From a virus, in IMG/VR virus record IMGVR_UViG_3300035670_001026, positions 1-28,199 of that record: 28,199 nucleotides of DNA. One strand, written 5' to 3'. A program made the translations under genes and the position numbers. Each line of letters opens with the position of its first letter. The first letter of the stretch is position 1. The notes below the pieces were generated by a model. It searched no databases and was not told the DNA's origin. It worked only from the letters and a program-made list of their open reading frames with translations. This document shows, piece by piece, positions 21,871 through 28,174 of this stretch.

Positions 21871-23927
21871 TGAGTGACTCAGGTTTAGAACTTAGTGGTT
21901 CGGAGTATTCAGCCAGCTTGATGTTTGCTGGCAACGAGGTTCCACCTCCTCCTACCGAGCGAACCTCTGCCGAAATTGAACAGGAACTAAAAGAAGTTAA
22001 AGCCTTGTTCAAGGACTTGGAGAAAGGTTTTGGGAAAACAACGCTTGCTTCTTTCCCTACTTTGTCTGCATTTGAATCCGCTAAGGCACAGGCGTACACG
22101 CTTATCAACGAGACTTTGCCCGCCGAACTCAAAGAACGTAAAGATTGGGACAAAAGGTATCGCGTCAAAGTCGCAGGGCTTTTCGGTACTGGTGTCAATG
22201 AATACACCGTTCTTTCCGCTGATGATGTGTACCAGTATCAGCAGTTGTATAAGGCTGCAACAGACCCTAATGATCCTGAACTTAAAGCGTATGACGCTGC
22301 TGTAAAAGCCGTTAACGATTTGCGTAACAAGATCAATACTCCTGGCAGCAAAGAATCAAAACTTCCACCGCAGGAACAGCAACTTCTAATTGCTTCAAAG
22401 TTGAAAGAAGTTCAACCGTTGATTACTCCGCGTGTGATCGAGTTGCGTTCGCAGAATATCCCTCTTGAAGTTGACAAGTCTGGTCGAACTCTAAGGTCAA
22501 CAAGTTTCCCGTTGGTCGGTCAGATTGATACGCAAATCAATCGTGCGATTAACGAGGGTGTCCGTATCGCTGAACGTGTTTATGGGACTCGGAAGCCGAC
22601 AGCGACTTTGTATGGTCAGCCAGCAGAACTAACAACCGTTCGCGATCAACAACAGACAGCACAACTTACAGAGTTTATGGATCGTGCGGACACGTTGCGT
22701 GGTCAAACACCTTCGCAGGCTGGAGCGCAACCAATCACCTACACGCAACAACCAGCCGCTACTGGTGGTCAACCTGCTTCTGCAACTGTCACACCTACGG
22801 GTGCTTCACAACGGGCTATTAACGCTCAGTCTCAACGCTTTGCAGCTATGGCTGGACAAACCCCACCACCACCTCCAGGTGGAGGCGCGGGTGCTGGCGC
22901 GGGTGCTGGAGCAGGTGCAGGCGGTGCTGGTGGTGGTGCGGGAGCGGGTCGCGTCGGAGCAGGTGGAACCATCGGTGGTGGCACAGCAGAAACACCAAAT
23001 TTCAAAGTCGGTGACTGGCAAGCAGTATTGCAAGATCAGTTCCCTGGCTACTCAAAAGATTGGTTAGATTCTAACGCCACAACCCATTTCGGTCAGGACA
23101 TGATTAACCTGATGATTGAGGCTGCTAAGCCAAACGGCAGGTTCATGGGTTTAACGACCGATGCTTCGGTTGCTGCGTTTCAGAAAGCAATCAAACAAAC
23201 TACTTATTGGCAGACCACTGAAACTGCTGCAAAGAACTTTGACCAAGCAATCGGTGTTGACCGTGACCGGATCATCAACAACAAGAAAATAGAGATCGCT
23301 AACTCGTATGGTGATGTGTCATTTGATGATGCAACTTTGACCCAACTTGCGACTAATGCTGCACGTTTAGGTTTGACTGGTTTGGGTTTGCAACAGGCTG
23401 TTTATGCTGGTGCGTTGAAGCCTGGTGCTGGTGGCGCACAGACAGCGTTGGCTAGTCGAGTGTTGCAGGGTGCTGACGCTGATCGTATTCGCAGTATTGG
23501 TCGTGCATGGAACACCAAGATTTCTGACAGCCAAGTGCAAGCAATTTTAACTGGTAAAGCTGATCCTGCTACTGGCATCGTGTTGACTGAGGATGGTTTG
23601 CGTGAACAGTTGCAAGCGAAGTGGAAGGGTGCTATGCCTCATCTGCGTGACCAGTTTGATGCTGGTTTGACTTTGGATCAGATTGGTTCTTCATACAAGA
23701 CTTATGCTTCACAGTTGTTGGAGAAGCCTGAGGATCAGATCAATATGTTTGAGGGGCCGTATTTGCAGGCGTTTGATAACGGTGAGGGTGGTCAGTTGTC
23801 GTTGTCTCAGTGGATTGAGAAGGTTAAGACTGATGACCGTTTCGGGTGGCAGTATACGAAGCAGGCTAATCAGCAGGCTACGGATGTTGCTTTGACTTTG
23901 GCTAGAGCATTTGGAAAGGTGAGCTGA
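21870..23927 (+). CDS. Virion-associated hypothetical protein B with Gly-Ala linker
   Basis: The protein has 685 residues in two globular halves joined by a long flexible linker. Residues 1-260 are helical (EIEQELKEVKALFKDLEKGF). About 285-330 is Gln/Thr/Pro-rich; about 331-372 is PPPPPGGG followed by many Gly-Ala repeats. Residues about 375-685 are helical again, with WQAVLQDQFPGYSKDWLDSN, EQLQAKWKGAMPHLRDQFDAGLTLDQI, and a terminal GWQYTKQANQQATDVALTLARAFGKV. The C-terminal part resembles structural proteins I recall from aquatic phage contigs. Its short terminal helix echoes that of protein A. A role as an internal or ejection protein is inferred from its position; its exact function is unknown. 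Confidence 0.6.
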   Translation: MSDSGLELSGSEYSASLMFAGNEVPPPPTERTSAEIEQELKEVKALFKDLEKGFGKTTLASFPTLSAFESAKAQAYTLINETLPAELKERKDWDKRYRVKVAGLFGTGVNEYTVLSADDVYQYQQLYKAATDPNDPELKAYDAAVKAVNDLRNKINTPGSKESKLPPQEQQLLIASKLKEVQPLITPRVIELRSQNIPLEVDKSGRTLRSTSFPLVGQIDTQINRAINEGVRIAERVYGTRKPTATLYGQPAELTTVRDQQQTAQLTEFMDRADTLRGQTPSQAGAQPITYTQQPAATGGQPASATVTPTGASQRAINAQSQRFAAMAGQTPPPPPGGGAGAGAGAGAGAGGAGGGAGAGRVGAGGTIGGGTAETPNFKVGDWQAVLQDQFPGYSKDWLDSNATTHFGQDMINLMIEAAKPNGRFMGLTTDASVAAFQKAIKQTTYWQTTETAAKNFDQAIGVDRDRIINNKKIEIANSYGDVSFDDATLTQLATNAARLGLTGLGLQQAVYAGALKPGAGGAQTALASRVLQGADADRIRSIGRAWNTKISDSQVQAILTGKADPATGIVLTEDGLREQLQAKWKGAMPHLRDQFDAGLTLDQIGSSYKTYASQLLEKPEDQINMFEGPYLQAFDNGEGGQLSLSQWIEKVKTDDRFGWQYTKQANQQATDVALTLARAFGKVS
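22861..22985 (+). repeat. Low-complexity Gly/Ala-coding tract
   Basis: A run of ggt-gct/gcg-ggt type triplets encodes the Pro5-Gly3-(Ala-Gly)n linker of protein B. It is a simple-sequence region prone to length change by slippage. Confidence 0.8.
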
Positions 23928-25091: not shown

Positions 25092-25123
25092 CTTGACACT
25101 GTCAAGCAAAGTGTGTGTATACT
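25092..25123 (+). promoter_or_regulatory. Promoter of the scaffold/capsid genes with overlapping operator
   Basis: TTGACA (25093-25098) and TATACT (25118-25123) with a 19-base spacer form a likely sigma70-type promoter, slightly over-spaced. The -35 lies inside a perfect dyad CTTGAC-ACT-GTCAAG (25092-25106), so a regulator could act here. It gives capsid genes their own transcription. Confidence 0.6.
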
Positions 25124-25133
25124 GTTAATGTTC

Positions 25134-25206
25134 GGTTACGGACACCATTGGAAACCCCCCGATTTCAATGTGCAAAAGGGGTGAGACTTGCAGCCATCGC
25201 GTAACC
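25134..25206 (+). ncRNA. Structured capsid-module leader with possible pseudoknot
   Basis: The roughly 110-base leader contains three nested elements. A 7-bp outer stem is GGTTACG (25134-25140) with CGTAACC (25200-25206). A bulged hairpin is CAC/ATTG/AAA (25143-25154) with TTT/CAAT/GTG (25163-25172). Its C6 loop (25155-25160) can pair with GGGG (25178-25181), which would make an H-type pseudoknot. CCTCC (25205-25209) could also pair with the GGAG of the scaffold ribosome site (25228-25231), competing with the outer stem. It has no T-arm, so it is not a tRNA. Confidence 0.4.
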
Positions 25207-25237
25207 TCCAGCGTGATGTGGGCAGAAGGAGTGGGTC

Positions 25238-25693
25238 ATGTCAGATGCAAACTACGAGTTTGAGGATGATGTAATGCAAGACCAGCAGCAATCGAAGGAC
25301 CCTGTGCGAGCGCACTTGCGGAAACTTGAAGCCGAAAATAAGGCTTTACGTGAGCAGGCAGCGGAAGCAGAGTCGGCCCGACGAGAACTTAACTTCGTGA
25401 AAGCGGGCGTCGACCCGAACGATCCGAAGTACAAGTATTTCGTTAAAGGCTACGACGGTGAAATAACACCGGAGGCGATTCGACAAGCAGCAGAAGAAGC
25501 AAGTCTCATACCTAGCCAGAACAAGGAAGTGGTTGCTGAACAGCAGTCATGGAATCGGGTGGCACAGGCAGCGCGAGCTGGACAGACAAGCGAACCTCCT
25601 GTTGATTACGCTCAACGTATTGCTAATGCAAAGTCCACGGATGAAGTGATGCAACTGCTGGCCCAGGCGAGAGCCGAAGCAGAAAACTACTAA
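25238..25693 (+). CDS. Capsid scaffolding protein
   Basis: The protein has 151 residues and is acidic and helical. HLRKLEAENKALREQAAEAESARREL (about 25-50, in pieces) is a coiled coil, followed by VKAGVDPNDPKYKYFVKGYDGE and a C-terminal helix, TDEVMQLLAQARAEAENY. This layout is typical of phage scaffolds encoded just before the major capsid protein. The scaffold guides shell assembly and is then lost. AGAAGGAG precedes the ATG. The gene lies downstream of the promoter and leader described above. Confidence 0.75.
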   Translation: MSDANYEFEDDVMQDQQQSKDPVRAHLRKLEAENKALREQAAEAESARRELNFVKAGVDPNDPKYKYFVKGYDGEITPEAIRQAAEEASLIPSQNKEVVAEQQSWNRVAQAARAGQTSEPPVDYAQRIANAKSTDEVMQLLAQARAEAENY

Positions 25694-25716: not shown

Positions 25717-25736
25717 CTTTGGGGCTACCCCTAAAG
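25717..25736 (+). promoter_or_regulatory. Hairpin at the capsid-gene ribosome site
   Basis: CTTTGGGG (25717-25724) can pair with CCCC and AAAG (25728-25731, 25733-25736) with a 3-base loop and one bulged T. The AAAGGA ribosome site (25733-25738) is partly inside the stem, so translation of the major capsid protein could be tuned, or the hairpin may protect mRNA ends. Confidence 0.4.
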
Positions 25737-25745
25737 GAAAACAAC

Positions 25746-26714
25746 GTGTCTAAAACACAACAAAGTTCGTTGTCAACCGACCAGGCAGCGTATGATCGCT
25801 TAGCATATTTTGCTTTGCGTTCAGAGCTTCTGTTCGATCAGGCAGCAGACGTTCAACCAACCAACCAGTCAATGCCTGGTTCTTCGGTGATCTTCACGAT
25901 CTTCGCAGACCTCGCAGAAGCAACCAGCACACTTGACGAAGTCACCGACGTTACACCTGTAGCGATGAGTGACAGCCAAGTGACCGTAACTCTTGCTGAG
26001 TACGGCAACACAATCAACACGACCGCAAAACTCCGTGGAACCTCGTTCTTGGATGTTGATGCAGCAGCAGCGAACCTTATCGGTTACAACGCTGGTGTTT
26101 CAATCGACAGCGTAGTGCGCGAAGTGCTTGCTGGCGGAACCAACGTAGCTTACGGCGGTGGCGGATCATCCGATCCAACAGGTCGTACCTCGGTTGCTGC
26201 TGAGGACATCATTGAAGCCAACGACATCCGTAAGCAGACTGCTGCTTTGCGTGCTGCAAACGTTGCAACCTTCAATGGTTACTACATGGGTTACATCCAC
26301 CCAGACGTTTCTTATGACCTTCGCCGTGAAACCGGTGCAGCATCATGGAACGCTCCACACGTGGCTGTAGACACAGCAAACATCTACAACGGTGAGATCG
26401 GAACCTTTGAATCAGTACGATTCATTGAAACCCCTCGCGCAAAGGTGTTCGCTAACGCATCAAACGGAACCAGCTCGACTGGAACGATTGACGTGTATTG
26501 CACACACATCATGGGTCGTCAGGCGTTGGCTAAGGCTTACAGCCAGGTTGACGGAAATGGCATGGTTCCGAAGGTTGTTCGTGGACCTGTTGTTGACTCG
26601 CTCATGCGTTTCAACCCAATTGGTTGGTACTGGCTTGGTGGCTATGGCCGCTTCCGCGAAGCATCGTTGCGTCGTGTTGAGTCAGCATCAAGCATTGGTG
26701 CTAACGCAGCCTAA
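25746..26714 (+). CDS. Major capsid protein (N4-gp56 family)
   Basis: The protein has 322 residues from GTG 25746, behind AAGGA. The sequence has the N4-gp56-family pattern: YDRLAYFALRSELLFDQAADV, GSSVIFTIFADLAEATSTLDE, LAEYGNTINTTAKL, NLIGYNAGVSIDSVVREVL, YYMGYIHPDVSYDLR, and the C-terminal VKVV-like KVVRGPVVDSLMRFNPIGWYWLGGYGRFREASLRR (all in pieces). This is an HK97-fold shell protein. An intrinsic terminator follows at 26745, so high-level capsid expression is insulated from the tail genes. Confidence 0.85.
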   Translation: MSKTQQSSLSTDQAAYDRLAYFALRSELLFDQAADVQPTNQSMPGSSVIFTIFADLAEATSTLDEVTDVTPVAMSDSQVTVTLAEYGNTINTTAKLRGTSFLDVDAAAANLIGYNAGVSIDSVVREVLAGGTNVAYGGGGSSDPTGRTSVAAEDIIEANDIRKQTAALRAANVATFNGYYMGYIHPDVSYDLRRETGAASWNAPHVAVDTANIYNGEIGTFESVRFIETPRAKVFANASNGTSSTGTIDVYCTHIMGRQALAKAYSQVDGNGMVPKVVRGPVVDSLMRFNPIGWYWLGGYGRFREASLRRVESASSIGANAA

Positions 26715-26744: not shown

Positions 26745-26785
26745 GTGGGGTAGCCGAGTCCCCTCGCTCGGTTGCCCCACTTTTT
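26745..26785 (+). terminator. Intrinsic terminator after the major capsid gene
   Basis: A 14-bp stem (GTGGGGTAGCCGAG at 26745-26758 with CTCGGTTGCCCCAC at 26767-26780, three positions being wobble or A-T pairs), with an 8-base loop, is followed directly by TTTTT (26781-26785). This is a textbook rho-independent terminator. Confidence 0.9.
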
Positions 26786-26790
26786 GTATT

Positions 26791-26799
26791 TGGTATAGT
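26791..26799 (+). promoter_or_regulatory. Extended -10 promoter for the tail genes
   Basis: TGG-TATAGT matches TGn-TAtaaT closely. It lies just after the terminator and about 20 bases before the next ATG, leaving room for a short leader with GAAAGG (26809-26814) as the ribosome site. Confidence 0.55.
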
Positions 26800-27208: not shown

Positions 27209-28174
27209 ATGGCGCAAACAGCAGTCACAGGTTTTACAGAACCGTTTAGTGATACTCACCCGTTTTATCGGGGAACATATTTCCGTGTTGTTAGTCGTAC
27301 TGCGACTGGTTCTGGTGATGGTTCTGCTTCTGTTGCTTCAGGTTCGGCACAGGTTCGTTTAGGTCAGTTAACTGACTTTAGTTTCCCTTACCGTTTCGGC
27401 GGTCGTTTCTATTTGGGTGTTCGTGCGGTTATCACCGTTACTGCTACGGCATCAGGTTTAGGTACTGCTTCTTCTTCGGCGCAGGTGTTGCGTCAACGGC
27501 AGGGTACGGGTAGTGGTGTTGGTTCTGGTGATGCGATCAGGGTTGTTGTTCTTCTTCGTACCGCTACGGGTAGTGGTGTTGGGACGATGGATTCTACGGG
27601 GTTGCATATTGCGCCTCGTACAGCGTCAGGTAGTGGTGTTGGCTCTGCTACTGCTGTTGAAACTATTACGCCTGTTAGAACGGCTGTGGGTAGCGGATCA
27701 GGGGCTTCTAGTGTCACGTTCATTCGTGTGCCTTTGCGTACTGCGACTGGTTCGGGTGTGGGTGCAGGGTCGGGTGTTGATCTTGTTGTCAACATTCGTA
27801 CCGCCACAGGATCAGGATCAGGTATCTCGGTCACGCTTGGTGGCATCCTGTATTTCCGTAGTGCTACCGGATCAGGTGTTGGAACATCAACTGCTGATTG
27901 GGTGAAATCCCATATTTTCCGTGTGCCATACACCTACAACTATCCAGGTGGGTACTTTGGTGGTGGGGATTCAGCGAACCGTTTAGGCCGTTATGACCGT
28001 TCGGGCGTTCGCGCACGAAACCTATACAAACTTAAAACAGGTGAGTACACCATCGTTGACCAACGTGATCTAGGTCAGGTAGAAAAACTGTGGCATGGTG
28101 GTCGCCTGCATTTCTTGGATGATGCTGAGGTGGCAGAACTGACCGCAGCAGGCTTTGGGGATAGCATCACCTGA
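27209..28174 (+). CDS. Repeat-bearing tail/appendage protein
   Basis: The protein has 321 residues. Residues 97-236 are seven tandem 20-residue units beginning R(T/S/Q)(A/G)xGSGxG (starts at 97, 117, 137, 157, 177, 197, 217); two diverged copies lie near 30 and 78. Each unit ends in short hydrophobic beta strands, which suggests a repeated beta structure such as a fibre or solenoid. Residues about 237-321 form a globular C-terminal domain (FRVPYTYNYPGGYFGGGD, LYKLKTGEYTIVDQRDLGQVEKLWHGG). It is probably a virion appendage; host-surface contact is an inference. The stop overlaps the next ATG. Confidence 0.7.
   Translation: MAQTAVTGFTEPFSDTHPFYRGTYFRVVSRTATGSGDGSASVASGSAQVRLGQLTDFSFPYRFGGRFYLGVRAVITVTATASGLGTASSSAQVLRQRQGTGSGVGSGDAIRVVVLLRTATGSGVGTMDSTGLHIAPRTASGSGVGSATAVETITPVRTAVGSGSGASSVTFIRVPLRTATGSGVGAGSGVDLVVNIRTATGSGSGISVTLGGILYFRSATGSGVGTSTADWVKSHIFRVPYTYNYPGGYFGGGDSANRLGRYDRSGVRARNLYKLKTGEYTIVDQRDLGQVEKLWHGGRLHFLDDAEVAELTAAGFGDSIT
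27497..27916 (+). repeat. Seven tandem 60-bp coding repeats
   Basis: Units are 60 bases each with a conserved cgtaccgctacgggtagtgg-like start and diverged remainder. They encode the 20-residue GSG repeats. Exact period and degenerate third positions suggest repeat expansion followed by purifying selection on the protein. Confidence 0.75.

Follow-up and report, generated by a model that had tools for sequence, protein, structure and literature searches.

Control of translation by a pseudoknot in the mRNA leader has been described for several systems. The closed form of the SAM/SAH riboswitch blocks initiation (PMC7367207), and in E. coli rpsO (S15), the alpha operon (S4) and mycobacterial rpsO the pseudoknot is stabilized by a protein of the same operon, S15 recognizing a U-G/C-G motif (PMC10931766). 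In phages T4, T2 and RB69, the pseudoknot of the gene 32 leader is located 67 nt 5' of the start codon, and the ribosome site lies in an unstructured A+U-rich stretch along which gp32 spreads; a 2010 review considered it perhaps the sole viral pseudoknot in translational autoregulation (PMC3014915). Autoregulation of a scaffolding protein is documented for P22 by Wyckoff and Casjens (1985), as cited in PMC5744158. Here we analyze a virus record of 28,199 bases (the window) in which a conserved RNA leader of ~108 nt probably acts in cis, on the comparative evidence below, as a gate on the translation of a putative scaffold gene, with a core that would hide the Shine-Dalgarno (SD) and a balance that may be shifted by a protein of the operon. 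The features of the locus are the following.

25093 to 25123, plus strand: promoter predicted from sequence, -35 TTGACA (25093-25098), -10 TATACT (25118-25123), 19-nt spacer
25129 to 25144, plus strand: P1, 5'-terminal hairpin UGUUCG-GUUA-CGGACA, 25129-25134 with 25139-25144
25146 to 25170, plus strand: P2, hairpin with arms CAUUGGAA (25146-25153) and UUUCAAUG (25163-25170) and the C-rich loop ACCCCCCGA
25157 to 25181, plus strand: PK1, loop CCCC (25157-25160) with GGGG (25178-25181)
25190 to 25223, plus strand: P3, hairpin of P3a (25190-25191 with 25222-25223), internal loop AGC/UGG and P3b (25195-25201 with 25212-25218)
25206 to 25231, plus strand: PK2, loop CUCC (25206-25209) with the SD GGAG (25228-25231)
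25238 to 25693, plus strand: putative scaffold gene, 151 aa, preceding the capsid gene (phrog_7813, function unknown)
25719 to 26714, plus strand: major capsid gene (phrog_1357 major head protein, E=1.8e-82)
26745 to 26780, plus strand: intrinsic terminator 3' of the capsid gene, 15-pair stem with 9 G-C pairs, 6-nt loop, then TTTTT

Since the promoter lies directly 5' of the leader and the terminator directly 3' of the capsid gene, leader, scaffold and capsid genes look like one short operon. We call the 151-aa protein a scaffold because the gene at the same position in the records of Streptomyces phages Dennebes and JPandJE is annotated as encoding a scaffolding protein; similarity between these proteins and ours was not significant by profile comparison. 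The closest capsids among GenBank phages share 43-46% identity and belong mostly to Streptomyces phages, those typed so far being Beephvirinae. A -35/-10 pair is found upstream of 97 of the 113 distinct leaders described below when a loose pattern is used, with 19 nt as the commonest spacer and TATACT as the commonest -10. The promoter of the window, which also falls within the interval of the original prediction (from 25092), was not returned by a promoter scan restricted to spacers of 16-18 nt. Its -35 sits within a perfect 13-nt palindrome, TTGACACTGTCAA (25093-25105), that is retained in near relatives only and is a possible operator. At the other end of the operon, the terminator overlaps a promoter-like site of the next gene that has TG ahead of its -10 (26772-26799); the two together span 26745-26799. 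Elsewhere in the window, a 685-aa protein has a low-complexity GAGAGAGAG stretch (22860-22960), and a 321-aa protein encoded after the head gene carries RTATGSGSG-type repeats (27209-28174).

Folded alone, the window shows nothing unusual (z = +0.78, no better than shuffles); this single fold is uninformative, and therefore only comparison can decide. Relatives were collected by capsid and scaffold searches of viral contigs, which gave several hundred loci, 393 of them with a scaffold match and enough upstream sequence. A strict core pattern fits 377 of the 393, and 14 more deviate from it by GTGGGCG; of the last two, L430 has no usable leader sequence and L431 has a diverged core (GGAGCC...GCGGCC with a CCUCC loop). 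The 391 leader copies, window included, collapse to 113 distinct leaders, which is the proper count because many loci stem from records that overlap on one contig. Covariation across these relatives, the check proposed with the original prediction, was assessed by an R-scape-like test (G-test with average-product correction) against null alignments in which substitutions were redistributed over the scaffold-protein tree. With a plain MAFFT alignment the E-values were weak (best 0.03), the arms being misaligned; anchoring on invariant bases only, with pairing not used, cured this.

In this tree-aware test the pairs of P3 ranked first. This hairpin, absent from the original prediction, has the strongest support of any helix: the seven top-scoring core column pairs comprise six from P3b, all its variable ones, plus the closing pair 25190/25223, with E-values of 0, 0, 0, 0, 0.005, 0.26 and 7.6. 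The six P3b pairs are canonical in 104-113 of the 113 distinct leaders and show 5-9 double changes each on the tree, while the closing pair is G-C in 79 and A-U in 34, with zero exceptions. P3 has a folding energy of -11.6 kcal/mol (ViennaRNA). Across 57 cores, 96.4% of the cells of P3 and PK2 are paired, vs 39-54% in slid versions; for the whole structure in 41 diverse leaders the figure is 91.3%, vs 37-54% slid and 81% in shuffles. The bases CAGCC and GUGGG are invariant and unpaired, as is GGGUGAG in full-type leaders. Columns 25234 and 25236, just before the start codon, change together between GUGGGUC and GUGAGCC (G to A with U to C), a co-change that is not significant in the tree-aware test (E=17). 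These comparisons show the leader to be a genuine structured RNA under strong conservation, with a fold other than that originally drawn.

The P3 loop presents CCUCC (25205-25209), and its pairing with the GGAG of the ribosome site, already proposed in the original prediction, is present and covaries from C-G to U-A. CUCC/GGAG occurs in 110 of the 113 distinct leaders and CUCU/AGAG in 3. A scan for cores with a CCTCT loop, in which the SD was left free, returned 67 matches with a scaffold gene downstream, and the SDs behind them are AGAG (Watson-Crick) or GGAG (U.G wobble). Over 176 loci the loop/SD states are C/G in 110, U/G in 40, U/A in 26 and C/A in 0, as predicted for a selected pairing. 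Parsimony on the scaffold tree yields four C-G to U-A changes, reversal being partly ambiguous, and in one clade (MSEFDN...) the SD is CGGAG or GGAGAG with its pairing to the loop preserved. Three of the four PK2 pairs are invariant and one varies, with no change that breaks the pairing; this covariation fits a simultaneous pseudoknot and two alternative nested folds alike. Two marks of an H-type pseudoknot that sequesters the SD, a covarying hairpin (P3) and a loop/SD pairing backed by covariation, are thus found in the core.

The bulged inner hairpin of the original prediction corresponds to P2 and was confirmed, with 98.2% of cells paired and changes on both sides at 8 of 8 pairs; the arms form a mean of 7.71 of 8 pairs, vs 6.55 when they are swapped among sequences. 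Its loop pairing with GGGG (PK1) was borne out as well, the column pair 25159/25179 being C-G in 72 leaders, U-A in 7 and U-G in 1. In 37 of 80 leaders the outermost PK1 pair, 25160/25178, is missing and 3 bp remain. PK1 resembles PK2 in design, a C-rich loop pairing with GGGGUGAG, which is similar to the SD segment GGAGUGRG, and P2/PK1 (25144-25189) and P3/PK2 (25190-25240) have a common layout of a hairpin with a C-rich loop. A tandem duplication is a possible origin of the two; the next best site for the core covariance model in the window is P2/PK1, at a score that is not significant (11.7 bits, E=0.06-0.75). GGGG-UGAGAC-UUG (25178-25190) has the 6-nt spacing of the scaffold's own GGAG-UGGGUC-AUG. 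A leader peptide starting at this UUG (25188-25190) was considered and rejected: the UUG is missing in 12 of 41 leaders, a stop follows within 4-7 codons in 6, and block spacings among relatives do not shift in triplets.

The outer stem fared differently. GGTTACG (25134-25140) is complementary to CGTAACC (25200-25206) in the window, as the original prediction held, but in the 41 diverse leaders only 28.3% of its cells pair, vs 27.2% in shuffles, and three slid versions pair better than the stem itself; just 4 of the 80 distinct full-type leaders keep all 7 pairs. GGTTAC instead caps the conserved 5' hairpin P1, in which 83.7% of cells are paired and 4 of 6 pairs have changes on both sides (41 diverse leaders), and which is absent in some relatives. 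The lack of conservation of the outer stem in relatives refutes the proposed switch between it and CCUCC/GGAG; the proposed translational control by hiding of the SD, by contrast, is well supported by the loop/SD covariation and by the element's occurrence only before the scaffold gene.

P1 and P2/PK1 are lacking in some leaders; none of those examined lacks the P3/SD core. Between the -10 and CAGCC there are 64-71 nt in leaders with P1 and P2/PK1, 48-49 nt in those without P1, 19-21 nt in those with P1 and without P2/PK1, and 8 nt where the core stands alone (L352-L358), which puts the start of the RNA at about +1 in all types. With its start at the predicted start of transcription and a terminator behind the capsid gene, it would constitute the whole 5' leader of the scaffold-capsid operon. 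Comparison of relatives thus establishes the helices, and both pseudoknot pairings as conserved base pairs, in an element placed at the predicted start of the transcript directly before the scaffold gene. The core pattern has 103 matches in the loci examined, 102 directly 5' of the scaffold and 1 at a contig end. On 27 records, most of 36-42 kb, the core model finds one strong copy in 26; the 27th is that of the diverged L431, whose locus, searched by itself, gives 22 bits. Cellular genomes gave at least 118 matches to the core pattern, with no scaffold or capsid homologue among the matches listed; we attribute them to chance, since among those listed the P3-like arms pair at 0-5 of 6 positions. 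The core model found no match above background in Streptomyces Beephvirinae. A hairpin that covaries is located ~30 nt ahead of the scaffold start in these phages (L184, L185, L621, L622, L624 and L625); its loop, UUCCCUAG, complements the SD of their scaffold gene, CUAGGAG, as CCUAG/CUAGG. This hairpin is possibly a gate of similar kind, or no more than the terminator behind the tRNA array.

How might such a leader work? In a closed form, the P3 loop CCUCC would pair with the GGAG SD as an H-type pseudoknot and exclude 30S subunits, and in an open form the SD would be freed for initiation, so that the paired form would mean low translation. The upstream P1 and P2/PK1 would be accessory modules for tuning or sensing. 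The isolated CUCC/GGAG duplex is predicted at -3.7 kcal/mol, vs -8.4 for the 16S anti-SD on the same SD (ViennaRNA), and PK2 alone should therefore yield to ribosomes unless stabilized, which suits a gate that is worked by a partner and would need a stabilizer. Only 2-6 nt separate P3a from the SD (2 nt in L380); P3a and PK2 may therefore be mutually exclusive, and their coexistence across such short linkers is doubtful. If they exclude each other, the element could have two states after all, by a route other than the outer stem. We infer that a trans-acting factor shifts the balance, the likeliest candidate being the operon's own scaffold or capsid protein in a feedback on shell assembly, and the invariant unpaired bases are a natural site for such a candidate partner.

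Feedback by the scaffold or capsid protein is our preferred guess by analogy, because the leader serves only this operon and because T4 gene 32, the ribosomal proteins and P22 provide precedents. The P22 autoregulation reportedly acts after transcription. As in an operator, the leader here lies directly 5' of the gene for the putative regulator, and the operon that holds both is bounded by a promoter and a terminator of its own. Tentatively, free scaffold or capsid protein might bind the P3 core, lock the SD pseudoknot and halt scaffold synthesis until assembly uses up the protein, with P2/PK1 as a second such module.

The leader might also act without any regulator. We regard as rather unlikely a constitutive arrangement in which the pseudoknot fixes a low or delayed rate of scaffold translation and P1 guards the 5' end of the mRNA: the location of P1 at the predicted 5' end, the variable accessory modules around a constant core and the lack of a regulator gene linked by evidence in this analysis would agree with it, but the invariant unpaired CAGCC and GUGGG (GGGUGAG in full-type leaders) exceed what a fixed SD blocker needs, and a weaker SD would be a simpler route to a low rate. 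A metabolite or ion riboswitch, in which a small molecule binds the core and stabilizes PK2 as in SAM/SAH riboswitches, is improbable. It would share the arrangement of a hairpin, a helix between loop and SD, and unpaired bases that are conserved; however, in the loci examined the element stands only before scaffold genes and never before metabolic genes, none was found in cellular genomes among the matches listed, and Rfam has no riboswitch that matches. Still less credible is a put-type antitermination RNA that acts on RNA polymerase at the operon start. A promoter-proximal structured RNA does open a structural-gene operon here, but the strong terminator directly after the capsid gene leaves hardly anything for read-through, the one part that is always kept is the core next to the ribosome binding site (relatives with a naked core have nothing upstream), and antitermination has no need of loop/SD covariation. 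That coding constraint or DNA operator repeats rather than RNA cause the conservation, as the unremarkable single-sequence fold might suggest, has next to no chance of being right, since conserved-block spacings vary by 1, 2 and 3 nt and are therefore not coding, G.U pairs, which would not be favoured in a DNA palindrome, account for 57 of the 678 in P3, and all helices covary, a result that already refutes this reading for P2 and P3.

Gating by an SD-hiding core thus remains our preferred reading, and the leader probably controls the timing and amount of virus shell production, to judge from its sequence and position. All examined relatives in one large uncultured phage group keep this RNA before the scaffold-capsid operon, which makes it a concrete candidate for the means by which a DNA phage adjusts the translation of its scaffold and shell proteins, a kind of control for which few RNA operators have been described. 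The natural compensatory loop/SD variants are ready-made pairs for testing the pairing.

With respect to described families, no member of the Rfam 15 library reached its gathering threshold anywhere in the window. The best match below threshold, the L31-Firmicutes leader RF03156 (25206-25231, 15.4 bits, E=0.5), lies far under its cut-off of 33.3 bits and was set aside as chance. The leader is thus a structured RNA family without an Rfam match, and we found no published description of it in the searchable literature, a body that excludes most subscription journals.

In form, the leader most likely acts like the pseudoknots that sequester an SD, such as the SAM/SAH riboswitch (PMC7367207), where likewise a hairpin loop pairs with the downstream SD in an H-type pseudoknot and the SD lies in the pseudoknot helix. 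It differs in serving phage scaffold rather than metabolic genes, in its additional P1 and P2/PK1 and in sequence, the covariance models of the whole Rfam library giving no match to the SAM/SAH family consensus. With the gene 32 leader (PMC3014915) it shares a pseudoknot in a phage mRNA leader and control of translation, but here the SD itself is a strand of the pseudoknot and no A+U-rich stretch follows it. P22, so far as the citing source conveys it (PMC5744158), offers a likeness in the feedback on scaffold synthesis in a tailed phage that we propose here, a comparison that does not extend to RNA structures. The ribosomal protein operators (PMC10931766) resemble it in having a pseudoknot at or near the ribosome binding site, whereas the target gene here is that of a phage scaffold.
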